Positions 9,690 through 29,171 of a stretch of DNA of 64,000 nucleotides are shown here, piece after piece (the first letter of the stretch is position 1; every line of letters starts with the position of its first letter). The translations under genes were made by a program, and so were the position numbers. The DNA comes from Bacteroidaceae bacterium. Lineage in GTDB: Bacteria; Bacteroidota; Bacteroidia; Bacteroidales; Bacteroidaceae. A model generated the notes under the pieces. It ran no database searches. It worked only from the letters and a program-made list of their open reading frames with translations, and had not been told where the DNA came from. Location of the stretch: the NCBI GenBank assembly GCA_024401275.1, contig JAKSLJ010000003.1, forward strand, positions 1 to 64,000. The letters are read 5' to 3'.

Positions 9690-12536
9690 ATGAAACGAAT
9701 TTCTTTTCTTGCATTGGCATTCTTTGCAGCGATTGGGCTGATGGCTCAACCGTTGCCAAAGGATGAAGGCGTCCGTGAGGGACATCTCGCTAACGGACTC
9801 ACATACTACATACGTCACAACAACCAGACTCCCGGGCAGGCTGACTTCTACATCGCCCAGCGTGTCGGTTCTATCCTTGAGAAGAAAGACCAGCGTGGTC
9901 TTGCCCACTTCCTTGAGCACATGGCATTCAACGGCACGGAACATTTCCCTGATGGCAATGCCGGTCCTCGTTCCATCCGCAGCTGGTGCGAGCGCAACGG
10001 CATTAAGTTTGGTGCCGACCTCAATGCATCGACATCCGTAGAGCGTACCATATATAATATAGCAAATGCTCCTGTGACAAAGGCAGGGATAGCAGACACA
10101 TGCCTGCTCATCCTTAGCGACTGGAGCCATGCCCTTCTGCTTCGTGATGAGGAGATTGACCAGGAGCGTGGTGTCATTCACGAGGAATGGCGCACACGTC
10201 GTTCGAACATGGCAGCACAGCGCATCATGGAGGAGGCGATGCCTGTCATTTATAAAGGCACAAAGTATGAGGACTGTCTGCCTATTGGATCAATGGAGGT
10301 GGTAGATACGTTTCATTACGAAGCTTTGCGCCGTTATTATCATAAGTGGTATCGTCCTGACCTACAGGCAGTCATCGTTGTTGGTGATGTCAACGTTGAC
10401 GAGGTTGAGCAGAAGATAAGGTCTCTCTTCTCTGCAATACCTGCTGCCGTCAATCCTGCTGTCCGCGAAAACTATCACGTTACAGACAACGACGAGATGA
10501 TTATCTTCTCCTGTGCCGACGACGAGCAGCCAACCCTAAACTTCCAGCTCTACATGAAGCGAGACGCCACCACAGCCACCGTTCCCGATGGTTCTCCATC
10601 GGATAAGAACGACTTCATCGCCGACTACAAATCCCGCCTTACTCTCTTCATTCTTCGCCAGCGTCTCTCTCTGTTGACAAAGCAAGCACATCCTGCCATG
10701 CTTTCTTGCTCTGCACGCGATGGCCAGTTCTACATCACTCCTGCAAAGGATGCCTTCTCGATCAGCATTGGCCTTAAGCCAGATGACCCACAGGCAGGTA
10801 TTGACGCTGTCATGGCTGTTGTGCAGAAAGCACGTCGCTATGGCATCACCGAGGCTGAGCTTCAACATGCAAAGATGCAGCATAACGTCAATCTGGAGCA
10901 TCGTCTTGACACAAAAGACAAGACACGCAACTCGGAATATGTCAGTAAGATTGTCAACCACTTCTGCAATGGCAAGCATCTGATGTCGATAGATCAGGAG
11001 GCAGACCTTGAGCACTCGCTCATGGACAGCATAACACTTGACGATGTCAACGAGACTTTGCGTCAGATCATCTTCGACGATGCTTCTGGTCGTAATCAGG
11101 TGGCGATCATCTATGGTCCTTCGAAATGGGATGGCAAGGAATACTCCATGCCTACCGCCCAGCAGTTTAAGGAATGGATCCTTGCAGCAGAGAAGCGTGA
11201 GTATGCTGCTCCCGTTCCCGAAGCTTCACCATCGGGTAAGTTCATCAAGAAACTGCCAAAGAAGGGACGCATCCTTGCTCGCAACGACTATGGTCATGGC
11301 TATACAGAGTATGTCCTATCCAATGGCATCAAGGTCTATGCACGCCCTTCCGAACTTGAGCCAAACCGCCTGACTATAAAGATGTTTCGTCAGGGTGGTC
11401 AGTCGCTCTATCCTGACAGCGACCTTCCTTCGTTGCGTATGCTTGGCAGCGTCATAACCCAGAGCGGTGCCGCCGATTTTGACTATCTCACACTTGAGAA
11501 GAAACGTGCCGGCAAGGCTTTGCGCGTAACACCATTCATGTCTGACGAGGAGGAAGGCGTTCAAGGTGTTTGTGCTGCTTCCGACTTCAAGACATGGCTT
11601 GAGGTGGCGTATCTCTATATCACTCAGCCTCGCCGTGACGACGATATCTTCAGCAGCCTTATAGATCGTCAGCGCTCTTTGCTGAAGAATCGTGCTGCAA
11701 GTCCGAAGGTTGTGTTCAATGATACGCTTCGCCAAACGCTCTATGCTAATCCTGAACGTGTGTCACCACTGACGATTGAGAGCATCAACCGTGTCTCTCA
11801 CGATCGCATCATGGAGATTTACAAGGAGCGTTTCCAGAACATGGCGGGCATGTCGCTCATAGTCACAGGTGACATTCGCACCGATGAGTTTGAGAACCTT
11901 ATCTGTCAGTATGTTGCCTCTCTGCCTGGCAAGAGAAAAGCAACCACCGTTTCCGATGGTTCATCATCGAGCGCCGACATCCTCCCCGGCAGCCGCACCA
12001 AGGTGTTCACCCACGAGCAAAAGACACCATCGGCACTGACGGAGATTATTTATTCTGCGCCTATTCCTTACACAGCTGACAACGACCTGCGTGCCGATGT
12101 CCTCGCACAGATTATGCGTGCAATCTATACCGAGACAGTGCGCGAGGAGAAGGGGGGCACATACGGCGTCTCTGTGGCAAGTCAGGGATGGAAGGAACCT
12201 TCTGATGGTTTCTCTCTGACCATCAACTTCCGCTGTGATCCAGACAAATACAGCGAACTCTTGCCTATCATCGATGAGCAGTTGGAGAAGATTGCTGCAG
12301 AAGGACCATCAGCTGAACGACTGCAGAAGGTAAAGGAATATGAGCGCAAGAACTATGAGCGCGCCATACTGACAAACGGCTGGTGGGAGTATGTCTGCTA
12401 CAACAAACTTGCAAATGGCATAGATTTTGCTGAGGATTATCTTAGCAAGGTAGATGCTCTCACCCCTACTGACATTCAGGACTTCTGCCGCACCCTCCTT
12501 GCATCAAAGAACCGAGTACAAGTAACAATGAAATAA
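9690..12536 (+). CDS. M16 family zinc metallopeptidase, secreted, two-domain (insulinase/pitrilysin type)
   Basis: A 948-residue peptidase with signal peptide MKRISFLALAFFAAIGLMAQ. The inverted zinc motif is H73-F-L-E76-H77, with the distal Glu in EEIDQERGVIHEEW near residue 155. The N-terminal M16 domain is followed by M16_C regions (RYYHKWYRPDLQAVIVVGDV) and a second, non-catalytic M16 half with the typical GGTYGVSV segment near residue 825. It should degrade peptides in the periplasm. It sits in the TonB receptor locus. In Pectobacterium FusA/FusC, a TonB receptor and an M16 protease import and cut ferredoxin, so a similar ligand-processing role is plausible. Three short palindromes encode the linker segments TVPDGSPSD, PVPEASPSG and TVSDGSSSS (see repeat entries). 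Confidence 0.92.
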   Translation: MKRISFLALAFFAAIGLMAQPLPKDEGVREGHLANGLTYYIRHNNQTPGQADFYIAQRVGSILEKKDQRGLAHFLEHMAFNGTEHFPDGNAGPRSIRSWCERNGIKFGADLNASTSVERTIYNIANAPVTKAGIADTCLLILSDWSHALLLRDEEIDQERGVIHEEWRTRRSNMAAQRIMEEAMPVIYKGTKYEDCLPIGSMEVVDTFHYEALRRYYHKWYRPDLQAVIVVGDVNVDEVEQKIRSLFSAIPAAVNPAVRENYHVTDNDEMIIFSCADDEQPTLNFQLYMKRDATTATVPDGSPSDKNDFIADYKSRLTLFILRQRLSLLTKQAHPAMLSCSARDGQFYITPAKDAFSISIGLKPDDPQAGIDAVMAVVQKARRYGITEAELQHAKMQHNVNLEHRLDTKDKTRNSEYVSKIVNHFCNGKHLMSIDQEADLEHSLMDSITLDDVNETLRQIIFDDASGRNQVAIIYGPSKWDGKEYSMPTAQQFKEWILAAEKREYAAPVPEASPSGKFIKKLPKKGRILARNDYGHGYTEYVLSNGIKVYARPSELEPNRLTIKMFRQGGQSLYPDSDLPSLRMLGSVITQSGAADFDYLTLEKKRAGKALRVTPFMSDEEEGVQGVCAASDFKTWLEVAYLYITQPRRDDDIFSSLIDRQRSLLKNRAASPKVVFNDTLRQTLYANPERVSPLTIESINRVSHDRIMEIYKERFQNMAGMSLIVTGDIRTDEFENLICQYVASLPGKRKATTVSDGSSSSADILPGSRTKVFTHEQKTPSALTEIIYSAPIPYTADNDLRADVLAQIMRAIYTETVREEKGGTYGVSVASQGWKEPSDGFSLTINFRCDPDKYSELLPIIDEQLEKIAAEGPSAERLQKVKEYERKNYERAILTNGWWEYVCYNKLANGIDFAEDYLSKVDALTPTDIQDFCRTLLASKNRVQVTMK
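10575..10602. repeat. Coding palindrome, family TVPDGSPSG, copy 1 (in the M16 gene)
   Basis: ACCGTTCCCGATGGTTCTCC followed by ATCGG. The arms CCGATGG and CCATCGG surround TTCT. It is in frame and encodes ATVPDGSPSD. Confidence 0.6.
11211..11236. repeat. Coding palindrome, family TVPDGSPSG, copy 2 (in the M16 gene)
   Basis: CCGTTCCCGAAGCTTCACCA followed by TCGGG. The outer arms are CCCGA and TCGGG. It encodes PVPEASPSG, in the same reading frame and orientation as copy 1. Confidence 0.55.
11943..11970. repeat. Coding palindrome, family TVPDGSPSG, copy 3 (in the M16 gene, degenerate)
   Basis: ACCGTTTCCGATGGTTCATC followed by ATCGA. It encodes TTVSDGSSSS at the junction before the ILPGSRTK segment. 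It is the most degenerate of the three copies in this gene. Confidence 0.5.
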
Positions 12537-12548
12537 GAAGGAAACTAT

Positions 12549-12662
12549 ATATGTGTTGTCCACAGGATGTAGGGCGAGGATTTCCGAGCCGCCCAATCAG
12601 CAAACTTTGTCACGAAAACGGCTCAGAAATCTTCGCCCTACAAGCAAAAGGACAACTGGTAT
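12549..12662. repeat. TGTAGGGCGAGG palindromic element with terminal inverted repeats (copy 1)
   Basis: The core 12568-12642 runs from TGTAGGGCGAGGATTTCCGA to CTTCGCCCTACA. It is flanked by GTTGTCC (12555-12561) and its inverse GGACAAC (12650-12656), giving a MITE-like structure. The gap between the M16 gene and the FMN-binding gene is filled by this copy. Confidence 0.8.
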
Positions 12663-12680
12663 ATTATTGCCAATAAGAAT

Positions 12681-13070
12681 ATGAAAAGAACAATTCTATC
12701 TCTCATCGTCATGACCATGGCACTCACTGCCATGGCTGACGATGTAATGCACAAGAAAGGCGATACTTACATCGTCAACACAACCACTCTCTGCCATAAG
12801 AAAGGATATAAGTCAACAACTCCTGTTGAGGTGCACATTCAGAATGGCAAGGTCATAAAGGTTGTTGCTCTCCCTAATAAAGAGAGCAAGGGGTATTTCA
12901 AGATGATACTCCAGAGACTTCTCCCTCTATACAACGACATCAAAGTAGGCAAAGCAGAGAAGCTATCCACCCAACAACAGGTAGATGCCTACACCGGTGC
13001 TACCTTCAGCGGCAACGCAGTACAGGCAAACATCAAAGCTGCTCTGGATTACTACAAGGCACATAAGTGA
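12681..13070 (+). CDS. Secreted FMN-binding domain protein (probably covalently flavinylated)
   Basis: A 129-residue exported protein with signal peptide ending at TAMA (about residue 19). It consists of a single FMN-binding domain (PF04205 type). D102-A-Y-T-G-A-T108 fits the flavin-transferase (ApbE) target D-x-x-[S/T]-G-A-[S/T], so Thr108 is the expected site of phosphoester-linked FMN. Such proteins carry electrons outside the cytoplasm and are often linked to iron reduction. It lies 144 bases after the M16 gene, across a repeat element. Membership of the TonB/M16 operon is likely but not certain. No ApbE gene is in the window. Confidence 0.85.
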   Translation: MKRTILSLIVMTMALTAMADDVMHKKGDTYIVNTTTLCHKKGYKSTTPVEVHIQNGKVIKVVALPNKESKGYFKMILQRLLPLYNDIKVGKAEKLSTQQQVDAYTGATFSGNAVQANIKAALDYYKAHK

Positions 13071-13188
13071 TTACGACTGGTTTCCCCTTTGGTTTATGGG
13101 AATGATTCCTTTTGGCGATGTTCGTGGGCTTCAGTGGGAAATTATAGAGAACCTCCTGTGAATTTGTCTTTTTTTTGGTAATGATATA

Positions 13189-13376
13189 CATGTTGTCCAC
13201 TGGATGTAGGGCGAGGATTTCCGAGCCGCCCAATCAGCAAACTTTGTCACGGAAACGGCTCAGAAGGTTCTCTGCACTAAAGGCAGAGCATCGCAAGCGC
13301 TGAGCGTAGCTCGGCGGCCGAAGGGGAAGCCAAATCTTCGCCCTACAAGCAAAAGGACAACTCGTATATTGTTTCC
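13189..13376. repeat. TGTAGGGCGAGG palindromic element with terminal inverted repeats (copy 2, longer)
   Basis: The core 13205-13346 is flanked by GTTGTCC and GGACAAC. It matches copy 1 closely but carries an extra segment of about 65 bases (13270-13335) that includes CTCGGCGGCCGAAGGGGAAG. This fills most of the 312-base gap between the FMN-binding gene and pyrG, which contains no gene. Confidence 0.8.
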
Positions 13377-13382
13377 CTTTTT

Positions 13383-15041
<1,659 letters not shown>

Positions 15042-15043
15042 TT

Positions 15044-15078
15044 ATTTGCACAAAGGGGTCAGACCCTTTTGTGCAAAT
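15044..15078. repeat. Long near-perfect hairpin between purF and pyrG
   Basis: The 17-base arms ATTTGCACAAAGGGGTC and GACCCTTTTGTGCAAAT are separated by a single base, with one mismatch. It lies 3 bases past the purF stop. It could attenuate or terminate transcription, or stabilise the purF message end. No T-run follows on the minus strand. Confidence 0.7.
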
Positions 15079-15081
15079 TTC

Positions 15082-16995
15082 CTAATTGTATTCCTGCTCA
15101 TACCAGCTGATGTACGACTTATAGAGCATTCTCAGACCGCCTGGGGTAGGGTAGTCGCCAGTGAAATACCAGTCGCCCGGGCTGTTAGGGCAAGCCTGAT
15201 GAAGTCCGTCAACGGTCTGGAAGATGATCTGCACAGGAGTCTTTACCGTGTCTGGAGTAAGGAGCTCGGCTATCTTCGCTGAGATTTCAATGTCGGTGAA
15301 AGGAGCGTAGATGGCGTTGACGAGGTTTTCGACCGAAGCGGACGCATTGGGAACGGTGGCTACCTTCACTTTCTCGGTTCCCCGTTCGCCTTCTGCCAGA
15401 ACAGCCTTTACTTTGTGATAGACTTCCGTCAGCAGGGGCTCCATTCCGCGTTCCTTGAGCAAGGCAACTGTTGCGCGGAAGGCAACGAACTGCTCCATGC
15501 TCGACATGTCGATGCCGTAGTAGTCGGGATAGCGTATTTGCGGTGCGGAAGAAACGATGATGATTTTCTTTGGATGGAGACGGTCGAGAATCTTTATGAT
15601 GCTCTGCTTGAGTGTAGTGCCACGAACGATGGAGTCGTCAATGATGACGAGGTTGTCTGCGAATGGCACGAGCGAACCGTAAGTGATGTCGTAAACATGG
15701 GCGGCAAGATCGTTTCGGGTGTCTCCCTCGCTGATGAATGTGCGGAGCTTGATGTCCTTTATTGCAACCTTCTCGCTGCGGATTCGCATGGAGAGAATGC
15801 GGCGTATCTGCTCATGATCAGGCTCATGCGCAAGGTCGTCAATGAGCAGTGCTTTCTGTTTGTTCAGATAGTTGTCCATGCCTTCTATAAGGCCGAAAAA
15901 TGCCACTTCCGCTGTGTTCGGAATATAGGAGAAGACGGTGTGCTCAAGGTCGTAGTCTATGGCAGGGAGGATTTGGCTGACAAGTTCGCGGCCGAGTTCT
16001 TTTCTTTCTTGGTAAATGTCCTTGTCGCTGCCTCGTGAGAAGTAGATGCGCTCAAATGAGCAAGCCTTGTTCTTGCCCTGTGGAAGGATTTCCTCTACGC
16101 GCAAGTCTCCGTGTTTGCTTACTATGAGCGCGTTGCCAGGAGTGAGTTCCTGAATGTCCCATGCGTGGAGGTTCATGGCTGTTTGGATAGCAGGGCGTTC
16201 AGATGCAACGACAAGAATCTCGTCGTCCTTGTAATAGAAGCACGGGCGGATGCCGTTAGGGTCGCGCATGGCAAACATCTCGCCAGAACCTGTCTGTCCA
16301 CAAACAACATAACCGCCGTCCCAAAGTGGGGCAGAGGTTCGGAGTACGTTTTCGACGCGTACGTTGTCTTCTATGTAGTTGGTGATGGAGAGGGGACCCA
16401 ATGCGGACGCATTGGGAACGGTGGCTTCTTGCTTCGCGGTGGCTTCTTGGTAAAGTCGCTCTACTTCACGGTCCAGCCGGTGTCCTATCTGCTCGAGCAT
16501 GATGTAGGTGTCGCTGTAGATTCGCGGATGCTGTCCTTTGCTCGTTATCTCCCGAAAGACCTCATCGACATTCGTCATGTTGAAGTTTCCGCAGATGCAG
16601 AGGTTCTTTGCGCGCCAATTGTTGCGCCTGAGGAAAGGATGTACGAAGGTCAGTCCGCTCTTGCCTGTGGTGGAGTAGCGCAGATGGCCCATAAGCAGTT
16701 CGCCGCGCCATGCCTCGTCATCGTTGCTGACCGTCTTTCCGACAGCCTGGAACACTTCCGTTATGGCACCAGAGCCGAGGGCTTTCTCGCGAAACATATA
16801 GTCCTTGCCCGGTTCGCATTCCAGTTTTACGCAGCTTATGCCGGCACCTTCCTGTCCGCGGTTGTGCTGCTTCTCCATCATCAGATAGAGCTTGTTTAAA
16901 CCGTACTGCCAGGAGCCATATTTCTCCTGGTAGTACGATAGTGGTTTCATAAGGCGGATCATTACGATTCCGCATTCATGTTTTATTGGTTCCAT
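15082..16995 (-). CDS. purF: Amidophosphoribosyltransferase (PurF type), long form
   Basis: About 637 residues, taking the ATG at 16995 (MEPIKHECGIVMIRL) as the start. The longer reading frame to 17115 would overlap amt and adds no domain. Cys8 is the class II glutaminase nucleophile, exposed after a seven-residue propeptide. QHNRGQEGAGI follows near residue 50. The PRPP-binding loop is LVIIDDSIVRGTTLKQS near residue 490. The enzyme makes phosphoribosylamine from PRPP and glutamine, the first step of purine synthesis. Two in-frame palindromes encode ATVPNASALG and ATVPNASASV. It is 22 bases downstream of amt. A second paralogue lies at 36618, so which one is the main purine enzyme is not settled. 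Confidence 0.88.
   Translation of the reverse strand: MEPIKHECGIVMIRLMKPLSYYQEKYGSWQYGLNKLYLMMEKQHNRGQEGAGISCVKLECEPGKDYMFREKALGSGAITEVFQAVGKTVSNDDEAWRGELLMGHLRYSTTGKSGLTFVHPFLRRNNWRAKNLCICGNFNMTNVDEVFREITSKGQHPRIYSDTYIMLEQIGHRLDREVERLYQEATAKQEATVPNASALGPLSITNYIEDNVRVENVLRTSAPLWDGGYVVCGQTGSGEMFAMRDPNGIRPCFYYKDDEILVVASERPAIQTAMNLHAWDIQELTPGNALIVSKHGDLRVEEILPQGKNKACSFERIYFSRGSDKDIYQERKELGRELVSQILPAIDYDLEHTVFSYIPNTAEVAFFGLIEGMDNYLNKQKALLIDDLAHEPDHEQIRRILSMRIRSEKVAIKDIKLRTFISEGDTRNDLAAHVYDITYGSLVPFADNLVIIDDSIVRGTTLKQSIIKILDRLHPKKIIIVSSAPQIRYPDYYGIDMSSMEQFVAFRATVALLKERGMEPLLTEVYHKVKAVLAEGERGTEKVKVATVPNASASVENLVNAIYAPFTDIEISAKIAELLTPDTVKTPVQIIFQTVDGLHQACPNSPGDWYFTGDYPTPGGLRMLYKSYISWYEQEYN
15334..15360. 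repeat. Coding palindrome, family TVPDGSPSG, copy in purF near the C-terminus
   Basis: Plus-strand GCGGACGCATTGGGAACGGT (from 15338), then GGC. It shares 23 consecutive bases (GCGGACGC to GGTGGC) with the copy at 16397. On the coding strand it encodes ATVPNASAS. Confidence 0.75.
16397..16426. repeat. Coding palindrome, family TVPDGSPSG, copy in the purF middle
   Basis: CCCAATGCGGACGCATTGGG (16397-16416) is an inverted repeat with 9-base arms, followed by GAACGGTGGC. On the coding strand it encodes ATVPNASALG, in the segment between the glutaminase strands. Confidence 0.75.
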
Positions 16996-17017
16996 TGGTT
17001 GTTTATTGGGTTTGCTT

Positions 17018-18244
17018 TTACTTGTTATAAGCAGCTTCGCCATGCTCGTAGATATCAAGTCCTTCCTCCTCTTCGCGGCGACCGCAACGGAGTCCGACTG
17101 TATATTTGATGGCATTGAAGATAATCATACCCATAACGAAGGCAAAAGCAACTACTGTGAATGCGCCGAGAGTCTGTACTCCGATAGAGCATTCAACACC
17201 GTCGATGGCTGAGTTGCAGAATACTCCGGTGAGAATGGTACCGAGGATACCGCCTACTCCGTGTACGCTGACTGCACCTACAGGATCGTCAACCTTCATG
17301 ACCTTGTCGATGAAGCTTACGGAGAAGCACATCGCAATGGAAACGATGATTCCGATGATTGCTGCTGCCCAGATATCTACGCAGTCGCAACCTGCTGTGA
17401 TGCCGACGAGTCCGGCGAGCACACCGTTGCAGACCATAGAGAGAGAAGGTTTCTTGTCAACAAGCCAAGTGTAGCAGAGAGCAGCGATACCACCAGTGGC
17501 TGCTGCCATGTTTGTGTTTATGAATACGATAGCTCCAAGAGCTGCATTGTCGCCTGTGATAGAGAGAGTAGAACATGGGTTGAAACCGAACCATCCTACC
17601 CAAAGACAGAATACGCCGAGGGCACAGAGTGCGAGGTTGTGACCAGGGATCGCCCTGCTGTTGTTATCCTTGTCGTACTTGCCGATACGAGGACCGAGAA
17701 CCATGGCGCCTGCAAGAGCGAGAGCGCCGCCGGCAGCGTGTACGAGAGTAGAGCCTGCGAAGTCATGGAAGCCCATCTCAGAGAGCCAACCGCCGCCCCA
17801 GCCCCAATGGCCAGAGATTGGATAAACGATGGCAGAGATAAGCATAGAGTAAACGAGATACATGGAGAACTTCGTGCGCTCAGCCATGGCACCGCTGACG
17901 ATAGTTGCCGTTGTGGCACAGAACATTGTCTGGAAGATGAAGAATGCCGGTGCAGGAATGTTGTCGTTGCCGCAGTTTGACATCCAGAGGAAGCCGTCCC
18001 ATCCGAACAAGCCCTTGTCGGCACCGAACATGAGTGAGAAACCTACAATCCAGAAAAGAATTGATCCGCACATCAAGTCGCAGAAGTTCTTCATCAATAT
18101 GTTTGCTGTGTTTTTTGCACGAGTGAGACCAGCTTCGACAAGTGCAAAGCCTGGCTGCATCCAGAATACGAGCATTGCTCCTAAAAGTACCCAAAGGGTA
18201 TCAACGGCATTGAAATCAACCGCTGCAAGATATAGAGTAGTCAT
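17018..18244 (-). CDS. amtB: Ammonium transporter
   Basis: A 408-residue inner-membrane Amt/Rh channel for ammonium, with about eleven hydrophobic helices. The N-terminus DTLWVLLGAMLVFWMQPGFALVEAGLTRAKN is typical of the family. The twin-histidine residues are in STLVHAAGGALAL and SVHGVGGILG. The short basic and acidic tail (CGRREEEEGLDIYEHGEAAY) is a normal Amt C-terminus that contacts P-II. It lies 151 bases downstream of the P-II gene glnK, the classic glnK-amtB pairing, with two GC-rich repeats in between. Expression should rise under nitrogen limitation. Confidence 0.95.
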   Translation of the reverse strand: MTTLYLAAVDFNAVDTLWVLLGAMLVFWMQPGFALVEAGLTRAKNTANILMKNFCDLMCGSILFWIVGFSLMFGADKGLFGWDGFLWMSNCGNDNIPAPAFFIFQTMFCATTATIVSGAMAERTKFSMYLVYSMLISAIVYPISGHWGWGGGWLSEMGFHDFAGSTLVHAAGGALALAGAMVLGPRIGKYDKDNNSRAIPGHNLALCALGVFCLWVGWFGFNPCSTLSITGDNAALGAIVFINTNMAAATGGIAALCYTWLVDKKPSLSMVCNGVLAGLVGITAGCDCVDIWAAAIIGIIVSIAMCFSVSFIDKVMKVDDPVGAVSVHGVGGILGTILTGVFCNSAIDGVECSIGVQTLGAFTVVAFAFVMGMIIFNAIKYTVGLRCGRREEEEGLDIYEHGEAAYNK

Positions 18245-18250
18245 GGTGAG

Positions 18251-18281
18251 ACCCCCTCTAACTCCCCCACAAGGGGAGGAC
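18251..18281. repeat. GC-rich palindromic repeat between glnK and amtB (first)
   Basis: CCCCCTCTAACTCCCCCACA followed by AGGGGAGGAC. It is a reference copy of the family. Confidence 0.7.
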
Positions 18282-18364
18282 TTTTTGATTAGTCTTGCTA
18301 ATCATGGGGTTAAAAGTCTGGTTTGTGTAATGTTGTGTTAATGCATCGGAAAAAGCTAATAACC

Positions 18365-18398
18365 TTCTCCTCCCTCGTGGGGAGGTCGGGAGGGGTCA
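18365..18398. repeat. GC-rich palindromic repeat between glnK and amtB (second)
   Basis: TTCTCCTCCCTCGTGGGGAG followed by GTCGGGAGGGGTC. It lies in inverted orientation to the copy at 18251, just past the glnK stop. Confidence 0.7.
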
Positions 18399-18743: not shown

Positions 18744-18797
18744 AACTTTGTATATATATTATTGTGTTGGCAATCAAGAACTTATGTTTTGATGGTG

Positions 18798-18805
18798 CAA
18801 AGGTA
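18798..18805 (-). promoter_or_regulatory. Putative -7 element of the glnK operon
   Basis: TACCTTTG on the minus strand, followed by GCACC, 55 bases before the glnK start. Confidence 0.55.
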
Positions 18806-19004
18806 AGGGTTTATAACGGTAAAAAGTGTAAATTGTAAGCAAACTGGACAAAAAATGTGCGCAAACTTACAATATGTTTGCAAAAGCGTGTATTTGGTTT
18901 ACAATCTGAAAGTAAAACATATATTTCTGCTTGCAAAATGCAAAATGGCGGGTTTGCGAATGAAATCTATTGCTCAAAATGCCCTCTACTATCAAACAAA
19001 ATCG

Positions 19005-19012: not shown

Positions 19013-19056
19013 CACCCGGAAACAACCAATATAAAAGCTAAATTGTAAATGAAACT

Positions 19057-20757: not shown

Positions 20758-21008
20758 AAGCCTCACCCCCCTTACCCCCTCTCCAGCCCCCTCTAACTCC
20801 CCCATAATGGGGCGAACAAAAGAGCGGAGTAACATTTTGGAGGGGGAGTAATTACACTTGCAGGCGATGATTTCCGTGCCGCAATGATTACACTTCAAGG
20901 ACAGAGGTTTATATAATAGGTAATAATAAATATGTGATATAATATTCCCCACAAAACATATCACTCCCCCTCCCCTTAATCGGGGAGGGGGCTGGGGGGA
21001 GAGGCTTT
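20758..21008. repeat. Intergenic block with two GC-rich palindromic repeats
   Basis: 20761-20850 contains CCCCCTCTAACTCCCCCATA, then ATGGGGCG and later GGAGGGGGAG. 20963-21003 contains ACTCCCCCTCCCCTTAATCG and GGGAGGGGGCTGGGGGG, ending 5 bases before dapF. Between them lies a degenerate piece resembling the TGTAGGGCGAGG family (GCAGGCGATGATTTCCGTGC, about 20851-20870). Confidence 0.65.
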
Positions 21009-21860
21009 ATGTTAGAATTCACTAAAATGCATGGTGCCGGCAATGATTACATTTATGTCAACACCATGCTCTACAATATAGAAGACCCTGAGGAGTTTTC
21101 AAAGAAGTGGAGCCGTTATCACTTCGGTATCGGCAGCGATGGACTCATTCTCATCGGTTATCCTTCTTCCATTCATGCCGACTATTCCATGCGCATTTTC
21201 AACAACGATGGTTCGGAGGCTATGATGTGCGGCAACGGTACACGCTGTGTTGCCAAGTATCTGCACGACAAGGGAATAACCGATAAGACCGTCATTCGTC
21301 TTGAGACAAAGAGCGGAATAAAGATACTCCATCTCCACCTCGACGAAGAGGGCAAGACCGAGAGCGTTACCGTAGATATGGACGAGCCGAAACTCAAGGA
21401 CGAGGCTAAGCACCAGTTCAAGGAAGAACTTGCCGACACTCTACCGGCAGGCACTTTCGTTTCAATGGGCAATCCGCACTATGTCATCTTCCTCGATGAT
21501 GAGACGGTTCGCGAGCAGTTCGGAATAGAAAGCGCTGATGTTGAGCAGTTTGATGTTGAAGCCCATGGCAAGAAGTTGGAGTTCCACCCAGCCTTCCCAG
21601 AGCGCTGCAACATTGAGTTTGCCACCGTTCTCGCCGACGGCAGCATCCGCATGAGAGTGTGGGAGCGAGGCAGCGGAATAACATGGGCTTGCGGCACAGG
21701 ATCTTGCGCCACAATGGTAGCCGCTTTCCTCACCGGCAGGGCTCCGCGACAGTCGACCATCGTGATGGACGGCGGCAGCGTAACAAACCATTGGCAGGAA
21801 TCCGACAACCATATCATGATGACCGGACCGGCAGAGTTTGTGTTCGACGGACAAATTTAA
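21009..21860 (+). CDS. dapF: Diaminopimelate epimerase
   Basis: A 283-residue enzyme interconverting LL- and meso-diaminopimelate in lysine and peptidoglycan synthesis. The N-terminus [14 protein letters not shown] is typical. The two catalytic cysteines are in [13 protein letters not shown] (about residue 75) and [14 protein letters not shown] (about residue 227). GNPHYVIF lies between them. The start is the ATG at 21009, directly after a GC-rich repeat. A strong terminator follows, and the next gene is dapL, which supplies its LL-DAP substrate. Confidence 0.96.
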
Positions 21861-21883
21861 TATACTTACGGACTGTAAGCAAT

Positions 21884-21927
21884 AATCCTGCAAATCGTTA
21901 ATCTTTGTAACAATTTGCAGGATTTTT
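21884..21927 (+). terminator. Rho-independent terminator after dapF
   Basis: The arms AATCCTGCAAAT and ATTTGCAGGATT are separated by 17 bases and followed by TTTTC. Confidence 0.75.
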
Positions 21928-22004
21928 CGTTACATTTATATATTTTATTAAGTTTTATGGGTAACTATTTGCCGCAAAGCAACGGCTTTCTCAGTAAATA
22001 ATCG

Positions 22005-22012
22005 TAACTTTG
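22005..22012 (+). promoter_or_regulatory. Putative -7 element of dapL
   Basis: TAACTTTG followed by GCACCC and AGAAAACAACCAATATA, 83 bases before the dapL start. Confidence 0.6.
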
Positions 22013-22094
22013 CACCCAGAAAACAACCAATATATCATATACCATTATCCTTGTATAATGGTAAATTGCAAATCTGTAAATTGTAAATGTAACT

Positions 22095-23321
22095 ATGGCA
22101 CTCATAAACGACCATTTCCTTAAACTTACGAAGAACTATCTCTTCGCCGATATAGCAAAGAAAGTTAACGCATTCAAGGTTACACACCCTAAGGCAGACG
22201 TTATCAGCCTTGGTATAGGTGATGTTACCCGTCCGCTCGTTCCTGCTGTCCTTGAAGCTATGCACAAGGCTGTTGACGAGATGGGTACCGTAGAAGGTTT
22301 CCACGGCTATGGACCAGAGGAAGGTTACGACTTCCTTCGCGAAGCTATCGTCAAGAACGATTTCCTCGCTCGCGGCGTGAAACTCGACAAGTCAGAAATC
22401 TTTGTCAACGACGGTGCGAAGAGCGATACCGGTAACATCCAGGAGCTCGTGCGCTGGGACAACAGCGTCGGCGTTACAGACCCTATCTATCCGGTTTATA
22501 TCGACTCAAACATCATGATCGGTCGCGCCGGAGTGAATGTTGACGGCAAATGGAGCAACATCACCTACATGCACTGCAACGAGGCTAACGGCTTCATCCC
22601 TTCTATTCCGGACTACAAGGTGGACATCATCTACCTCTGCTACCCAAACAACCCAACCGGCATGGTCATCAACCGCGCTGAGCTGAAGAAGTGGGTGGAC
22701 TATGCTATAAAGAACGACGTGCTCATCTTCTACGATGCTGCATACGAAGCATATATCCAGGACGACGATATTCCGCATTCCATCTACGAGATTCGTGGCG
22801 CAAAGAAGGTGGCTATCGAGTTCCACAGCTACTCAAAGACAGCCGGCTTCACTGGTATTCGTTGCGGTTATACCGTTGTGCCTAAGGAACTTACCGTTGC
22901 CGGACTCGATGGCAATCGCTATGAGCTCAATCCACTTTGGGATCGTCGCCAGTGCACTAAGTTCAACGGCACAAGCTATATCTCACAGCGTGCTGCCGAG
23001 GCTACCTACTCTCCGGAAGGCAAGCGGCAGGTCAAGGAGGTCATTGACTACTACATGACCAATGCAAAGCTTATGCGCGAGGCACTCGTCGAGATGGGCT
23101 ACACCGTCTATGGCGGTCAGAACGCACCATATCTCTGGGTAAAGACTCCGAACAACGAGACCTCATGGGAATTCTTCGAGCATCTGCTCTACGGCGCACA
23201 TGTTGTCTGCACACCAGGTGTCGGCTTCGGTCCTGCTGGTGAGGGTTACATCCGCCTCACATCGTTTGGCGACCGCGAGAAGTGCATCGAAGCACTTGAG
23301 CGCATCAAGAAATGGAAATAA
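22095..23321 (+). CDS. dapL: LL-diaminopimelate aminotransferase
   Basis: A 408-residue PLP enzyme of fold type I that makes LL-DAP directly from tetrahydrodipicolinate, bypassing the succinylase or acetylase steps. It starts [24 protein letters not shown], as DapL proteins do. The active-site Lys is in the motif [15 protein letters not shown] near residue 250. [11 protein letters not shown] is the aminotransferase Asn/Pro block, and the C-terminus has [16 protein letters not shown] with the substrate-binding Arg. It has its own promoter and ends in a strong bidirectional terminator. Together with dapF it shows that the organism uses the DapL variant of lysine synthesis. Confidence 0.96.
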
Positions 23322-23343
23322 TCGCAATCAGATAATAACTATC

Positions 23344-23378
23344 AAACAGGGGCAAGGAAAGAACCTTGCCCCTGTTTT
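23344..23378. terminator. Bidirectional terminator between dapL and the GH43 gene
   Basis: A 14-base stem, AAACAGGGGCAAGG paired with CCTTGCCCCTGTTT, with a 6-base loop and T/A runs on both sides, between convergent genes. Confidence 0.9.
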
Positions 23379-23400
23379 GGTACTAATTGGGTTGTGCGCC

Positions 23401-25017
23401 TTACATTCCGAGAATGAAGTCTTGGAGTTCGCAGAGGGACTTGCCCTTTGTGTCTGACTCAAAGACGAAGAAGACTGCCTGCTTGCCCTTTGGATTCTTG
23501 ATGTCAAGCTTTGTGGTGAGCTCTGTCGTCTGCTGTGGCATTGACGACTTGAGAGTGAATGAACCGACCTCTACGCCGCCCTGGCTCTTCCATGGTCTGC
23601 CGAGCATGACACGAATCTTGCCGTTTACGCCTTCTGGCTTGCAACGCAACTGCATTGTGATGTCCTTCTTTCCAGCCAACTTGTTCATGTTGAAGTACTT
23701 ATAGCCCACGATAGAGCCAGCAGTGTTATTCACAACAGGAGCAAACGGAACCTTGTGGTTGCGAGGAGCCTGGTATGAATCTGACTGGAAATAAATCGGC
23801 TTGATGTATGAACCAGAGTAAACATAGTTAGGATAAACCTCGCGGGCAGGCTCTGGACCAGTAAACCAGCAAGCAAGACCGGCAGCCTGACGAACGGTTG
23901 GGTCAAGTCCCTCAAGTGCAAATCCCTCAGAGTTGTATTCGCCCTTTGATATTTCCACCTTGCCGCCTTTTCCTTTCTGAACCTTAACGCTGATAGGTGC
24001 AACCATTGCCTGACGAGCATAGCAGTCGGTGCCGATTTGACGGTGGTAGAACACGTACCACTGGTCGCCAATCTTGCAGATGCTGCCGTGAGTATTTCCG
24101 CCTGGCATGGCAGAGGCTATCCAATTGCCTTTTTCGTCCTTTTCCTTTGCGCGAGCATCGATGATGGTTCCGCCGTAAGTCCATGGGCCGAGCGGATTGT
24201 CGCTGTAGCAGTAAGCGAGAGTATAGTTTGAAGCATTAGGAAGATCGTCCTCACCTTCGACCGTTGTGCGAGAGTAGATGAATACATACTTATCATCAAT
24301 CTTGCGGATAGACGAAGCCTCGAAGAATCGGTAGATTCCTTCTTCCTGGTAGCCGGAAATCATATTCTCAACAACGTTTGTACCAGGCTTTACGCTGCAC
24401 ATGGTTTCCGGGTCCATCTCTGCTCCATGCGATTTTCCGAAGCCCCAGTAGCCGTAAACCTTGCCGTCGTCGTCAATGAAAACGGCTGGGTCGAAGCCAA
24501 GGCATCCGAAAGTCTCAGTTGGCTTTTCCTTGCTCCAGTTGATTACTTCAAAAGGTCCGTCAGGACGGTCGCTCTTGCAGACCATTGTGTTTCTGCCGCC
24601 ACCCTGATTGTTAGGGTAAAGGTAATAGGTTTTCTTTCCGTTGGCGTCAGTCTTTACGGTCATGTCCGGAGCGAAGAGAACGTCGGCAGTGCCATCGGCA
24701 TTGAGGCGGTCAAACTTTGGAGTCTCATATACCTTGAATATCATTCCGTCATAGCGCCAGTTTGTGAGGTCGTCAACAGGAGCAGACCATACCACTTGAT
24801 CTCTACCGCAGTACATCCAGCGCAGATTGTCGTGAGAACCATAGACATACACGCGGTACTTGCCTGGACAGTCTGGGTCTTCGAAAACATAAGGTTCGCC
24901 GTCAGGAATGAACTCCCAAAGCGGCATGTAAGGATTCTGCGCAGCTGCTGGCAGCGCGAAGAAGAGGAGTAAAGCCATGCAAGCCAAGTTCCTCAAGAGG
25001 GTAATGCTTTTTTTCAT
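23401..25017 (-). CDS. Secreted glycoside hydrolase family 43 enzyme with C-terminal beta-sandwich module
   Basis: A 538-residue exported enzyme with signal peptide ending ALPAAAQ (residue 27). The GH43 five-bladed propeller has its three acids in FIPDGEPYVF (Asp39, base), FGCLGFDPAVFIDDDG (Asp, near residue 176) and RFFEASSIRKI (Glu, general acid, near residue 235). A CBM6-like jelly-roll module follows (about residues 410-538: GYKYFNMNKLAGKKDITMQL, then GGVEVGSF). The likely activity is removal of arabinofuranose or xylose from plant polysaccharide, but the exact specificity cannot be read from sequence. It lies 102 bases after mnmG with a hairpin between them, away from the main xylan locus. 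Confidence 0.88.
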   Translation of the reverse strand: MKKSITLLRNLACMALLLFFALPAAAQNPYMPLWEFIPDGEPYVFEDPDCPGKYRVYVYGSHDNLRWMYCGRDQVVWSAPVDDLTNWRYDGMIFKVYETPKFDRLNADGTADVLFAPDMTVKTDANGKKTYYLYPNNQGGGRNTMVCKSDRPDGPFEVINWSKEKPTETFGCLGFDPAVFIDDDGKVYGYWGFGKSHGAEMDPETMCSVKPGTNVVENMISGYQEEGIYRFFEASSIRKIDDKYVFIYSRTTVEGEDDLPNASNYTLAYCYSDNPLGPWTYGGTIIDARAKEKDEKGNWIASAMPGGNTHGSICKIGDQWYVFYHRQIGTDCYARQAMVAPISVKVQKGKGGKVEISKGEYNSEGFALEGLDPTVRQAAGLACWFTGPEPAREVYPNYVYSGSYIKPIYFQSDSYQAPRNHKVPFAPVVNNTAGSIVGYKYFNMNKLAGKKDITMQLRCKPEGVNGKIRVMLGRPWKSQGGVEVGSFTLKSSMPQQTTELTTKLDIKNPKGKQAVFFVFESDTKGKSLCELQDFILGM

Positions 25018-25034
25018 AGTTGGTTAGTTTTTGG

Positions 25035-25054
25035 CACCACCGAAAACGGTGGTG
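25035..25054. promoter_or_regulatory. Perfect hairpin in the leader of the GH43 gene
   Basis: CACCACCG AAAA CGGTGGTG, an 8-base stem with a 4-base loop, 18 bases before the GH43 start and 65 bases after the mnmG stop. No T-run follows on the minus strand, so it may be an mRNA leader structure rather than a terminator. Confidence 0.55.
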
Positions 25055-25090
25055 AATAATCTTTATTTTTGTATCGCAAGTCTATTAAGA

Positions 25091-25120
25091 GCTCCCCCCT
25101 TTTGGGGGTGGGGGGCTTTT
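25091..25120. repeat. GC-rich palindromic repeat at the end of mnmG
   Basis: GCTCCCCCCTTTTGGGGGTG followed by GGGGGCTTTT, touching the mnmG stop codon. The preceding AAGTCTATTAAGAG is shared with the copy at 55952. Confidence 0.65.
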
Positions 25121-27150
25121 TATCTTTTCATTAGTACGAGTAGCACATTGATGTCCGAAGGCGATACGCCCGGTATGCGCGATGCCTGGGCGAGAGTTTC
25201 CGGATTTATCTTAACGAGCTTCTGGCGCGCTTCGGTGGAGAGGGAGTCCATTGATGCATAGTCAAAATGACCGCGAATCTTTATGTCCTCAAGTCGGCGC
25301 ATCTTCTCCGCCACCTGACGCTCACGAACGATATAGCCGCTGTACTTCATCTTTATCTCTGCAGCCTCGCAGATTTCCTCGCGGCGGTTTTCTGGAGCAT
25401 CCAGCAACTGCTTGAGTGCCGGAATTACCTCGGCAACGCCCTGAAGCGAAATCTCCGGACGGGCAATGAGGTCGAAGAGTTTCATGCCGGTATGGAGTGG
25501 GGTAGAGCCTATGCTTTCGAGATAGCTGTTAAGGTCTTTCGGACGGAGAGAATACTTCCGGCAGAATGTCTCGATAGCGTCAATATGCTGCTTCTTGGAG
25601 AGCCAGAGATCGTAGCGGTCGCGCTTCGCAATGCCGAGGTTGTAGGACATTTCGGTCAGTCGCGCATCAGCATCGTCCTGACGAAGCAGAATGCGGTATT
25701 CAGCGCGTGAAGTGAACATGCGGTAAGGCTCATCAACACCCTTCGTCACGAGGTCGTCAATGAGTACACCGATATACGATTCGTCGCGCTTCATGACGAG
25801 TGGTAGCGGTCCGCCATTGTCGCTTCTACCGTTAATATATGTAGGGTCAGCACCTGCAAATATGGCAGCATTTGCACCGGCAACGAGTCCTTGTCCAGCC
25901 GCTTCCTCATAGCCTGTGGTTCCATTAACCTGTCCGGCAAAGAAAAGACCGGGAACGAGCTTTGACTCAAGTGAATGATGCAGTTGTGTAGGGTCGAAGA
26001 AGTCGTATTCTATGGCATATCCCGGACGATAAACGCGGACATCGCGCAGTGCAGGAATCTTGCGCAAGGCGTTCAGCTGCACCTCCATAGGCATTGATGA
26101 AGAGAAGCCGTTGAGGTACATCTCGTCGGTGTCCTCGCCCTCTGGCTCAAGGAAGAGCGGATGCTTTTCGCGGTCAGGGAAGGTGACGAGCTTGGTCTCC
26201 ACTGATGGGCAGTAGCGTGGACCGATACTCTTTATCTGTCCGTTGTAGAGTGGCGAATCGTCAAGCCCTTCGAGAAGTGCTTTGTGGCACTCCGGGTTCG
26301 TGTTGAATGTCCAGCAAGGAAGCTGTTTCAGCTTGCGCTGTTCCGTCTCGAAATAAGAGAAGCGGTGCCAGTCTGCTTCGCCCTCTTGAATCTCTGTCTG
26401 TGAGAAATCTACCGACTTGCGGTCGATGCGCACTGGAGTGCCGGTTTTCATGCGCTGCGAAGTGATGCCCAGAGCATTGAGCGACTCTGTAAGACCGTAT
26501 GAGGCAGGTTCTGCGCAACGGCCTCCTGCCACCTGCTTGCGCCCGATATGCATAAGTCCGTTGAGGAATGTTCCGGCAGTGACGACGACTGATTTGGCGT
26601 AGATTTCCACGCCCCAGATGGTGGTGATTAGCAGCCCCCCTCCGACTCCCCCCCCAAGGGTGGAGAGATTATCAATGGAATTTGACTGGGAGTTTGAGTT
26701 ATACCGGTTATAGCCTGCCGCAGAGTCATTTTTTAGACTCCCTCCCACTGGGGGGAGGGCTGGGGTGGGGCTAATGCTCTCCGCCTGATCCTGCCAGATG
26801 TCGAGGTTTGGAGTACTGTCGAGGAGCTGGCGCCATTTCCAGATGAACTTGCCACGGTCGCATTGGGCGCGCGGGCTCCACATGGCTGGTCCCTTTGAGC
26901 GGTTGAGCATGCGGAACTGTATGGCAGTGGCATCGGTAACCAATCCCATGCCGCCACCAAGAGCGTCCACCTCACGCACAATCTGTCCCTTGGCGATACC
27001 GCCAACGGCAGGATTGCACGACATCTGCGCTATCTTATTCATATCCATAGTCAGCAGGCAGGTTTTCGCGCCCATGTTTGCCGAAGCCATTGCAGCCTCG
27101 CAACCGGCATGTCCTGCGCCGATGACTACTACATCGTAGTATAGTTTCAC
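25120..27150 (-). CDS. mnmG: tRNA uridine-5-carboxymethylaminomethyl modification enzyme MnmG, with a repeat-derived insert
   Basis: A 676-residue FAD protein that, with MnmE, modifies the wobble uridine of several tRNAs. The N-terminus YDVVVIGAGHAGCEAAMASANMG is the FAD-binding Rossmann motif. CNPAVGGIAKGQIVREVDALGG and TAGTFLNGLMHIGRKQVAGGR are family blocks, and the C-terminus has RIPGVSPSDINVLL. Usual length is about 620-630. The surplus lies at about residues 127-175, where SPTPALPPVGGSLKN, an Asn/Ser-rich stretch and LSTLGGGVGGGLL replace a short loop. This insert is encoded by two inverted GC-rich repeats with 66 bases between them (26630-26772). The frame stays open. dnaG is 38 bases upstream. 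Confidence 0.95.
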   Translation of the reverse strand: MKLYYDVVVIGAGHAGCEAAMASANMGAKTCLLTMDMNKIAQMSCNPAVGGIAKGQIVREVDALGGGMGLVTDATAIQFRMLNRSKGPAMWSPRAQCDRGKFIWKWRQLLDSTPNLDIWQDQAESISPTPALPPVGGSLKNDSAAGYNRYNSNSQSNSIDNLSTLGGGVGGGLLITTIWGVEIYAKSVVVTAGTFLNGLMHIGRKQVAGGRCAEPASYGLTESLNALGITSQRMKTGTPVRIDRKSVDFSQTEIQEGEADWHRFSYFETEQRKLKQLPCWTFNTNPECHKALLEGLDDSPLYNGQIKSIGPRYCPSVETKLVTFPDREKHPLFLEPEGEDTDEMYLNGFSSSMPMEVQLNALRKIPALRDVRVYRPGYAIEYDFFDPTQLHHSLESKLVPGLFFAGQVNGTTGYEEAAGQGLVAGANAAIFAGADPTYINGRSDNGGPLPLVMKRDESYIGVLIDDLVTKGVDEPYRMFTSRAEYRILLRQDDADARLTEMSYNLGIAKRDRYDLWLSKKQHIDAIETFCRKYSLRPKDLNSYLESIGSTPLHTGMKLFDLIARPEISLQGVAEVIPALKQLLDAPENRREEICEAAEIKMKYSGYIVRERQVAEKMRRLEDIKIRGHFDYASMDSLSTEARQKLVKINPETLAQASRIPGVSPSDINVLLVLMKR
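26630..26772. repeat. Inverted pair of GC-rich repeats inserted in frame in mnmG
   Basis: The left arm (26630-26668) contains GCAGCCCCCCTCCGACTCCC and AAGGGTGGAGAG. The right arm (26735-26772) contains AGACTCCCTCCCACTGGGGG and GAGGGCTGGGGTGGGGCT. The AT-rich centre encodes NDSAAGYNRYNSNSQSNSID. Confidence 0.8.
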
Positions 27151-27188
27151 CTTACAGTTTTACAATTTACGGATTTACGATTTCTTGA

Positions 27189-29171
27189 TTATCTACTTCT
27201 GCCAGCCATCTTGGCTACCTGGTTGTGCAGATTCTTCATTTCCCTGTAGTGCATCATTGCCTCAGCCTGTTCTTCAGGAGTGGCATTCTCCAGTCGTTTC
27301 TTTGCCTCATCAAGCTGTGCTACAATCATCTGAAGGCGCAGGTCGATGAAGAGATGGTTTATGCTCTGGAAAATCTGCATGGCCTTCTTTTCCGGCTCCA
27401 TTTCCTCTGGCGCGATGTTCTCATTGACCATGATGAACTGTGTTGCCGTTTGGTTTATGGTAAAATCATCATGGCGCATGAAGTATTGCTCTGCAATAAA
27501 GTCCGGATTGTCCGACTGCTGCGCGGCTTCATTCGCTATTTGATTGTATATAGGAATAGAGAACTCGATCTCGTCCTCGGCAAAGTTCAGTTGCACAAGC
27601 TTTGCTAGAGAGACCATCGGATCGGTAGGCATGAGCATCTCGCCATGACGGATTATGAGCTGCATTATCATGGATTCAACTTCTTGCAGCTTTGTCTGTT
27701 TCTTCGGTATAGGCACCGCGTTTGCTGTGGCAGAAGAGACGGTAGCGCCCGATGCAGACGCTTTAGGAGCATTTCCTGCATTCGTACCCATCATCTCGGC
27801 ACGGTCTCGTTCCATCTGTTCAAGTTCTTTTTCGCGTTCCTCCTGCTTGCGACGCTCTTCGATGGCATCGTGGATGAACTTGTTGACACGACGGACTATT
27901 ACATCTTCGTGAACACCGAGCTTAGTGACACAGAGCGTAACATACATGGAACGCTTTATCGGGTCTTTTATCAGTGATACGCTCTTAAGTACACTGTCTA
28001 TGGCCTCAGCGCGCTTTATCGGGTCTGTGACGCCGTTGAGCATGATGGAGCATTTGAAGTCAATGAAGTCCGTCTGGTGCTTCTCCACATAGTCCCGGAA
28101 TTCCTCCGCCGTATGCTTTCGTGCAAAGCTGTCCGGATCGTCGCCGTCTGGCAGAATGAGCACCTTGATGTTCATGCCATGAGAGAGCAGCATGTCAGTT
28201 CCTCGCATGGCAGCATGTATGCCGGCTTCGTCGCCATCGTAGAGCAGAGTGATGTTCGGAGTAAGGCGATGGAGTATGCTTACCTGCTTCATGGAGAGCG
28301 CAGTACCGGAGTTTGCTACCACATTCTCTATGCCGCACTGGTGCATTGAGATGACATCAGTATATCCTTCCACCATATACACGCGGTTCTCCTTGGCAAT
28401 AGCTTTCTTTGCCTGGAAAAGTCCGTAGAGCTCGGAGTCTTTCTTGTAGAGTTCCGTCTCAGGAGAGTTTACGTATTTTTGTGCTACGCCTTTGGTGCGC
28501 GAGTCAAGGAGACGACCACCGAAACCGATAACCTTTCCGCTCTGTCCAAACCATGGGAAGATGACGCGACCGGCGAAACGGTCGATGAGTTCGCCGCGAT
28601 CGTTCTTGTAGCAAGTGCCGGTCTTTTCCAAATATTCAGCCTTGTAGCCTTGCTGTAAAGCTTTCTGTGACAAGGATTTACGGTCTGCTGGAGCATAGCC
28701 GAGCTTGAACTTTTGGATAATGTCATCGCGGAAACCACGGCTGCGGAAATACGGAATGCCGATGGATGTGCCGTCAACACTATTGTGTAGCTGGTCGGCA
28801 TAGTAATTCGCTATCCATTCGTTTACGATGAACAGGCTTTCGCGTTCCGTCTGTGCGCGGCGCTCCTCGTCTGTCATCTCCCTCTCTTGTACCTCAATAT
28901 TGTATTTGCGCGCAAGATATTTCAATGCTTCTGGATAGGACATCTGTTCATGTTCCATGATGAAGCCGACGGCATTGCCGCCCTTACCGCATGAGAAACA
29001 CTTGCAGTAGCCTTTGGCGCGAGACACGATGAACGATGGAGTGCGGTCGTTGTGGAACGGACACAATCCCTTGAAATTGGCGCCCGCCTTCTTCAGTGAA
29101 ACGAAGTCGGACACCACGTCAACGATGTCTGCGGCATCCATGATGCGCGCTATGGTGAGTCTGTCAATCAT
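27189..29171 (-). CDS. dnaG: DNA primase
   Basis: A 660-residue primase that makes RNA primers at the replication fork. The CHC2 zinc-binding domain has ligands C37, H40, C58 and C61 (LCPFHNDRTPSF, then CKCFSCGKGG). The RNA polymerase/TOPRIM core has YMVEGYTDVISMHQ and LLYDGDEAGIHAAMRG near residues 265-320. A variable linker (about residues 440-480) contains the Ala/Ser-rich segment NAPKASASGATVSSATANAVP, part of which comes from a small palindrome also found in purF. The C-terminal helicase-binding region follows. It lies 15 bases downstream of the S41 protease gene and 38 bases upstream of mnmG, so the three are probably one operon. Confidence 0.96.
   Translation of the reverse strand: MIDRLTIARIMDAADIVDVVSDFVSLKKAGANFKGLCPFHNDRTPSFIVSRAKGYCKCFSCGKGGNAVGFIMEHEQMSYPEALKYLARKYNIEVQEREMTDEERRAQTERESLFIVNEWIANYYADQLHNSVDGTSIGIPYFRSRGFRDDIIQKFKLGYAPADRKSLSQKALQQGYKAEYLEKTGTCYKNDRGELIDRFAGRVIFPWFGQSGKVIGFGGRLLDSRTKGVAQKYVNSPETELYKKDSELYGLFQAKKAIAKENRVYMVEGYTDVISMHQCGIENVVANSGTALSMKQVSILHRLTPNITLLYDGDEAGIHAAMRGTDMLLSHGMNIKVLILPDGDDPDSFARKHTAEEFRDYVEKHQTDFIDFKCSIMLNGVTDPIKRAEAIDSVLKSVSLIKDPIKRSMYVTLCVTKLGVHEDVIVRRVNKFIHDAIEERRKQEEREKELEQMERDRAEMMGTNAGNAPKASASGATVSSATANAVPIPKKQTKLQEVESMIMQLIIRHGEMLMPTDPMVSLAKLVQLNFAEDEIEFSIPIYNQIANEAAQQSDNPDFIAEQYFMRHDDFTINQTATQFIMVNENIAPEEMEPEKKAMQIFQSINHLFIDLRLQMIVAQLDEAKKRLENATPEEQAEAMMHYREMKNLHNQVAKMAGRSR
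27748..27767. repeat. Coding palindrome, family TVPDGSPSG, copy in dnaG
   Basis: CCCGATGCAGACGCTTTAGG matches the purF palindrome CCCAATGCGGACGCATTGGG at 16 of 20 positions. On the coding strand it encodes PKASASG. Confidence 0.55.

Follow-up and report, generated by a model that had tools for sequence, protein, structure and literature searches.

A short palindromic hairpin with a constant leader recurs in frame in unrelated genes, and in the gaps between genes, of a Bacteroidaceae genome

Why do unrelated enzymes encoded within 64,000 nucleotides of a Bacteroidaceae genome (the whole stretch analysed, here called the window) carry the same small palindrome in the same reading frame? The preliminary description of this DNA counted six in-frame copies, in an M16 peptidase gene, purF and dnaG, and read them as a mini-element that is tolerated as a Pro/Ser-rich linker and confined to coding DNA. 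We find that the observation is real and larger than first described. That description missed a constant leader, a hairpin that varies while staying paired, co-orientation with genes and copies in operon gaps that touch stop codons. The hosts are unrelated, as it stated: the M16 peptidase, purF and other genes share no common pathway. The features are collected in Table 1.

Table 1. Element copies, host genes, unit differences and a second palindrome (R1, covariance model of the element; L numbers, loci; G numbers, genomes)
Feature	Position	Strand	Evidence or extent
Element copy, M16 peptidase gene (TATVPDGSPSD)	10574..10605	+	R1 43.4 bits, E=4.3e-9
Element copy, M16 peptidase gene (APVPEASPSG)	11207..11238	+	R1 34.4 bits, E=7.4e-7
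Element copy, M16 peptidase gene (TTVSDGSSSS)	11942..11973	+	R1 38.3 bits, E=8.1e-8
Element copy, purF (EATVPNASALG), perfect 8-bp stem	16395..16426	-	R1 43.6 bits, E=3.8e-9
Element copy, purF (VATVPNASASV), stem partly decayed	15330..15361	-	R1 37.2 bits, E=1.5e-7
Possible decayed copy, dnaG (APKASASG), not significant	27746..27777	-	8.7 bits, E=2 for 27746-27768
Host gene, M16 peptidase	9690..12536	+	PF00675, PF05193
Host gene, purF, amidophosphoribosyltransferase	15082..17115	-	Homologues, gene calling; longest reading frame
Host gene of doubtful copy, DNA primase dnaG	27189..29171	-	PF01807, PF08275, Toprim
Leader-bearing unit difference, G000 vs G120	L108, L291		33 nt, in G000, not G120; 85% identical DNA
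Leader-bearing unit difference, G000 vs G120	L286, L120		32 nt
Leader-bearing unit difference, G000 vs G120	L290, L122		36 nt
Leader-bearing unit difference, G000 vs G120	L080, L254		29 nt
GCCCCCGAGGGGGC-arm palindrome	L221:4536	+	
GCCCCCGAGGGGGC-arm palindrome	L234:2985 and 3762	-	

Each unit spans about 30–36 nt and begins with a constant leader, (A)GCCACCGTT, before a 20-nt hairpin; the layout in 5′ to 3′ order is leader AGCCACCGTT, hairpin, then C or T. The arms of the hairpin vary in sequence from copy to copy and keep their complementarity. We described leader and hairpin by a covariance model (R1) whose 27 training copies come from the window's own genome; because these include the five copies of the window, those five match R1 by construction. 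Conservation is sharp at model positions 1–31 and drops on either side, giving about 31 conserved nucleotides. R1 favours paired stems and its E-values are rough; the pattern counts with their controls, and a sample chosen by the leader alone, are independent of it.

Within the window the palindromic element is real. Five copies have R1 E-values from 3.8e-9 to 7.4e-7, and a search for the palindrome with up to three mismatches returned two sites where 0.01 were expected: the palindrome originally quoted, at 16397–16416 (minus strand), and a three-mismatch copy at 15332–15351. All five significant copies, three in the M16 gene and two in purF, are in frame, as claimed; the sixth, in dnaG, is indistinguishable from chance (E=2) and is possibly a decayed copy. 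The long identity between the two purF copies proved to be 24 consecutive bases, one more than reported, and in the R1 alignment two stem positions of the copy at 15330–15361 are unpaired. The codon-usage gene caller starts purF near 16962, and the nearest purF homologues are 65% identical at best. Rfam at gathering scores returned two tRNAs and no other known RNA family from the 64-kb window, and among the papers listed by literature searches none dealt with such elements in Prevotella or Bacteroidales. Two tRNA-Asn (GTT) genes of the window lie within a perfect 83-nt direct repeat (30997–31079 and 31109–31191).

Could Pro/Ser-rich loops have come to look alike by chance or codon bias? The dnaG copy, no better than chance, fits this idea, to which we assign practically no probability: only 0.01 matches were expected in the window, and the third codon bases of the element pair with each other, as described below. 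Counts in the own genome are likewise above chance. The pattern CCACCGTTCCCNATGNNTCNNCATNGGG with three mismatches has 20 matches there and none in the reversed control; three control runs of the pattern count gave 0, 0 and 1 matches. R1 finds at least 109 matches at E≤1 and at least 79 below 0.01, and the true number may exceed 109 because 150 of 1,173 candidates were scored. Taken with the leader-only sample, the controlled pattern counts reject chance similarity.

We took the leader-only sample because R1 favours paired copies. It requires exact GCCACCGTTCCC, then 16 free bases and a base other than A, and comprises 108 matches from 13 genomes. Perfect stems occur in 20 of 25 copies from genome G000 (shuffled mean, 4.2), in 29 of 37 from G120 (shuffled mean, 7.9) and in 6 of 18 from five further R1-positive genomes (shuffled, 1.5); the counts are 2 of 25 in G096 (shuffled, 1.7) and 0 of 3 in five genomes with no R1 matches. 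Several G096 copies, such as CCCGGCGCGTCAGCGTCGGG, show G–T wobble by eye, which lies outside the perfect-stem count. The reversed leader matches once in G000, twice in G120 and three times in G096. In G197, G064, G091, G282 and G007 the leader alone is hardly enriched, as the reversed control gives 13 matches against 18.

Changes in the two arms are coupled. Across the 27 aligned copies, both sides have changed in 31 cells, against 10.8 expected after shuffling. The third codon bases at positions 16 and 25 form a Watson–Crick pair in 118 of 133 coding copies chosen by R1 (50.6 expected), and outside genes this pair is compensated in 74 of 82 copies (33.1 expected). Among coding copies with Gly at the sixth residue the eighth is Pro in 44, Ala in none and Ser in 3; with Ala at the sixth it is Pro in 34, Ala in 28 and Ser in 2. 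Pairing offers a reason for these associations, protein-level selection no evident one. At 18 pairs of orthologous sites, both bases of the 16–25 pair changed with pairing kept in 7, one side changed in 2, the outcome differed from these in 2 and nothing changed in 7; at the 18–23 pair change was mostly one-sided (10 of 18). The third-base, orthologous-site and adjacent-pair counts use matches of exactly 32 nt, with identical ones entered once in the third-base count.

Placement was examined in 60 stretches around own-genome matches, in which genes were called by a purpose-made codon-usage score. Called genes hold 36 of the 109 matches, 34 in sense and 2 in antisense orientation, and all 34 sense copies are read in the frame GCC ACC GTT CCC, which yields the peptide ATVP(E/D)(A/G)S(A/P)SG. 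Both antisense copies are on one 4.5-kb contig. Copies at 1199, 1235 and 1595 of the 4.5-kb contig C59 (L102) all oppose predicted genes, reflecting a gene-calling problem or a real exception. Confinement to coding DNA, true of the window, does not extend to the genome, where 73 of the 109 matches lie outside called genes; three of these (C7:9612, C7:9648 and C67:15537), which fall within open sense frames (179 and 775 amino acids) and keep the usual frame, are possibly genic. Of the 73, 69 lie between co-directional genes in the orientation of both neighbours; two oppose both, one opposes the downstream gene and one has no upstream gene. Counted as 86 arrays, the bias is 31 sense to 1 antisense within genes and 50 to 2 between genes. 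These 50 intergenic arrays omit the two opposite both neighbours, the one opposite the downstream gene and the one with no upstream gene; 18 of them start within 4 nt after the upstream stop codon (7.2 expected for uniform placement in their own gaps), and none ends within 4 nt before the next start. The exact 12-nt leader alone gives 28 matches in the same stretches: 20 outside genes, 7 sense and 1 antisense, so that 7 of 8 genic matches are sense, all 7 in the usual frame.

These placements bear on the main rival explanation, a cis-acting mRNA hairpin in which a host factor would bind or cut leader and hairpin behind operon stop codons, selection would keep the stem and the coding copies would be a tolerated in-frame subset. 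It is favoured by the intergenic co-orientation (69 of 73), by the arrays starting at stop codons, by compensation of the 16–25 pair outside genes and by the small genic share, 36 of 109 own copies, in examined DNA that is 85% genic. We nevertheless consider it unlikely. R1 matches at E≤1e-4 occur in 4 of 60 genomes, the own genome and 59 relatives (G000, G007, G015 and G033). A scan of the genus, in which up to 24 candidates per genome were scored, gave matches in 62 of 299 genomes, the own genome included, with the highest counts under this cap in G000, G120, G096 and G197. From the matches listed we analysed 157 copies at 111 loci, a set that omits four matches on L259 (DNA identical to L295) and one truncated match on L321. 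The patchiness across species argues against a functional mRNA element, as do the 127 of 157 copies that are genic; of these, 117 are sense (112 in the usual frame, 5 in another) and 10 antisense. Seven of the ten antisense copies share one frame, read PDGKPSGTVA in L338. Among the 30 non-genic copies, 20 have the orientation of both neighbours, 3 oppose both, 3 oppose one and 4 are unassigned. The direction bias is thus strong and not absolute.

Two further observations stand against the mRNA hairpin. At one host site, which we take to be TrpE-like, L267 and L268 have the element in sense orientation, L338 has it in antisense and L342 in both. The hosts, moreover, have no pathway in common and include virus-labelled contigs. 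One pattern is matched exactly in six such contigs, in the sense ATVP frame in five and immediately behind an in-frame TAG in the sixth; a second pattern has no exact match in virus-labelled contigs. At E≤0.01, R1 detects 19 matches in the six, in a single direction per contig.

Filled and empty sites were also compared. The first purF element (16395–16426) is missing in all 80 kept homologues, with a net gain of 9 residues, and DXS carries 12 inserted residues at the site of its copy relative to PDB 2o1s. For 24 of 146 coding copies a homologue was judged element-free at flank identity of at least 55%. The net difference at these 24 sites ranges from −7 to +26 amino acids, and for 13 of them it is 6 to 15. 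For two or more of the 24, the 'empty' homologue still shows look-alike residues (L286 versus L120, second site). In the best case, 30 nt in G120 replace one codon in G000, a net 27 nt, between flanks that are 97% identical. Four of nine alignments of G000 with G120 (at least 200 nt) show one leader-bearing unit gained or lost at 80–86% identity (Table 1), and the others show no such gap or mixed changes. Inspection by eye of a few filled sites beside empty ones showed neither target duplication nor target consensus. In the pairs shown, the three M16 sites differ from homologues by a net of about +4, −1 to +1 and +2 to +5 residues; because these changes are small, sequence was lost or replaced there too. 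Comparison with homologues bears out insertion in purF but not clean insertion in the M16 gene, and simple insertion at every site is rejected. Inside genes the element adds a short peptide that is apparently harmless, and the proposed tolerance of a short Pro/Ser/Ala/Gly linker is supported by the unrelated hosts, the single frame, the 9-residue insertion in purF and the 30 nt in place of one codon.

We favour, at a probability of roughly 60%, a mobile or mobilised mini-hairpin of about 30–36 nt, made of the constant leader and a 20-nt hairpin of largely free sequence. Units are present at some sites and absent from their counterparts, dispersed, co-oriented, restricted in frame and compensated in their arms. 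On this mobile reading, insertion of new units would favour the orientation that places the leader in the coding strand; transcription may expose coding-strand DNA as the acceptor, or the donor may go through an RNA stage. Purifying selection would then keep genic insertions that are multiples of three in a benign frame; the arms would drift while staying complementary, through template-switch correction of quasi-palindromes or selection on the hairpin; and the inserting enzyme would presumably act in trans. Against the mobile reading stand the lack of a mobilising gene among the scanned Y1_Tnp loci, the failure to see a target duplication or target consensus, the small length changes at M16 sites, the wide spread of net differences at the 24 compared sites with look-alike residues in some 'empty' homologues, the G096 stems and five-genome leader count near their controls, and the mostly one-sided change at the 18–23 pair; co-orientation is also expected of a functional mRNA element.

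A bolder form of the idea, possible but in our judgement doubtful, is that the hairpin is defined by its 10-nt leader and its structure rather than by arm sequence, that transcribed genes receive it in their sense strand as it spreads via transcription-exposed DNA or an RNA intermediate, and that fold-back copying, upon insertion or later, rewrites its arms. If true, this would make it a class of mobile element that has no fixed sequence. Template switching can make, repair and maintain hairpins (in the portion of PMC8794818 drawn on here) and can invert spacers (likewise in part of PMC8604942).

Template switching might also act locally with no mobile unit, slippage on short GC-rich inverted repeats copying nearby hairpins and expanding arrays. 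Its capacity to make and maintain hairpins, as described in that portion of PMC8794818, would suit this, and so would the small net length change at M16 sites and the geometry of the arrays: neighbouring matches less than 300 nt apart have the same orientation in 26 of 26 cases, with a spacing of 36 nt in 10 of them, and 2 of 14 adjacent pairs of units are identical. The remaining 12 pairs differ, adjacent units differing on average at 7.4 of 20 positions and random pairs at 7.5, which rejects tandem duplication as the main source of the arrays. The same leader also occurs in unrelated, distant genes, and single copies in purF and other genes have no nearby donor that we could see. We judge the purely local process improbable.

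Other repeats lie nearby. Units repeating every 22 nt (TTTTCTTATAAGAAAA and related sequences) form arrays at 31441–31566 and 60620–60811 of the window. In L114, where the host gene is QueA of queuosine synthesis (G000, C70 near 61078), about 1.5 copies, within the stretch examined, of a repeat of about 24 nt, GGAGCTCCCGTTCCTTCTTCCAAC, directly precede the element. The purF and M16 genes of related genomes contain a second coding palindrome that is longer and GC-rich, with GCCCCCGAGGGGGC arms and the reading APEGAT...EAPSGAVGGA, and purF of another genome has an in-frame repeat of ACAATGTACAATGTACAATTA type (L205:4470, plus strand).

REP and REPIN sequences are short tagged hairpins present in many copies per genome. 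Their hairpin with a constant tag and their high copy number resemble the element, raising the question of whether a Y1 (HUH) RAYT transposase moves it. The short constant 5′ tag of the hairpin and the presence of Y1_Tnp genes, with 4 matches in the own genome, are in keeping with this. Yet the arms here are not conserved, the element is largely genic or operon-internal (36 of 109 own and 127 of 157 other copies lie in genes, where REP sequences are extragenic), and close pairs are direct in 26 of 26 cases rather than inverted as in BIMEs or REPINs. A search of 21 genomes listed 34 Y1_Tnp loci in 17 of them; at the 31 loci scanned we found no linkage to the element, no copies flanking a RAYT gene and no mobilising gene, the scan giving one weak element match (23.2 bits, E=7e-4) and one insignificant match (E=0.92). 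The palindrome that does flank a RAYT-like gene in this genome is non-genic in 27 of 27 cases. Mobilisation by RAYT/Y1 is rejected on this lack of linkage, and we hold it to be very improbable. An inverted REP-like repeat, TGTAGGGCGAGGATTTCCGAGCCG, lies in the window at 12568–12648, 13205–13265, 34898–34929, 53912–53989, 55850–55928 and 60509–60587, and it flanks a RAYT-like Y1 transposase gene on both sides on contig C45 (L024); repeat and gene are likely a REP/RAYT pair.

Coding palindromes are best known from Rickettsia, and the Rickettsia palindromic elements (RPE) are the closest kind by behaviour. In the sections of PMC2229807 and PMC10969869 used here, RPE are palindromic repeats found in frame in unrelated conserved genes and between genes; our element likewise has in-frame copies in unrelated conserved genes that are absent from homologues. 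RPE measure about 105–150 bp in those sections of PMC2229807, against about 30 nt here, and have a conserved palindrome specific to each family, whereas the present element has a constant leader and arms of free sequence. It also differs in its Prevotella-like Bacteroidales host and its arrays of direct repeats, and is, for its own part, strongly co-oriented with transcription. Because size, variable arms, leader and host differ, we file it as a variant of the coding palindrome rather than among the RPE. MITEs such as Correia/NEMIS, ERIC and RUP are also small repeats, some fused in frame to genes; as that portion of PMC2229807 describes them, they span about 100–200 bp, and terminal inverted repeats occur in most of them, target duplications in several. 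Neither was evident here, where a few filled and empty sites were inspected by eye and the search for a parent transposon covered Y1_Tnp genes. Mitochondria of Nematomorpha keep perfect inverted repeats inside coding sequence, for which arm conversion has been proposed, but there both arms encode conserved amino acids of the host protein, unlike here; a constant leader or dispersal of one unit, both seen here, are not described in the part of PMC6649704 that we draw on.

The present element is a much smaller coding palindrome. It is frequent, though patchily so, in a large gut genus, and it lengthens housekeeping enzymes by about ten residues. A hairpin that is kept while its letters change makes the co-evolution of its arms testable, as template-switch correction versus selection, and directional insertion relative to transcription becomes testable with sequence data.
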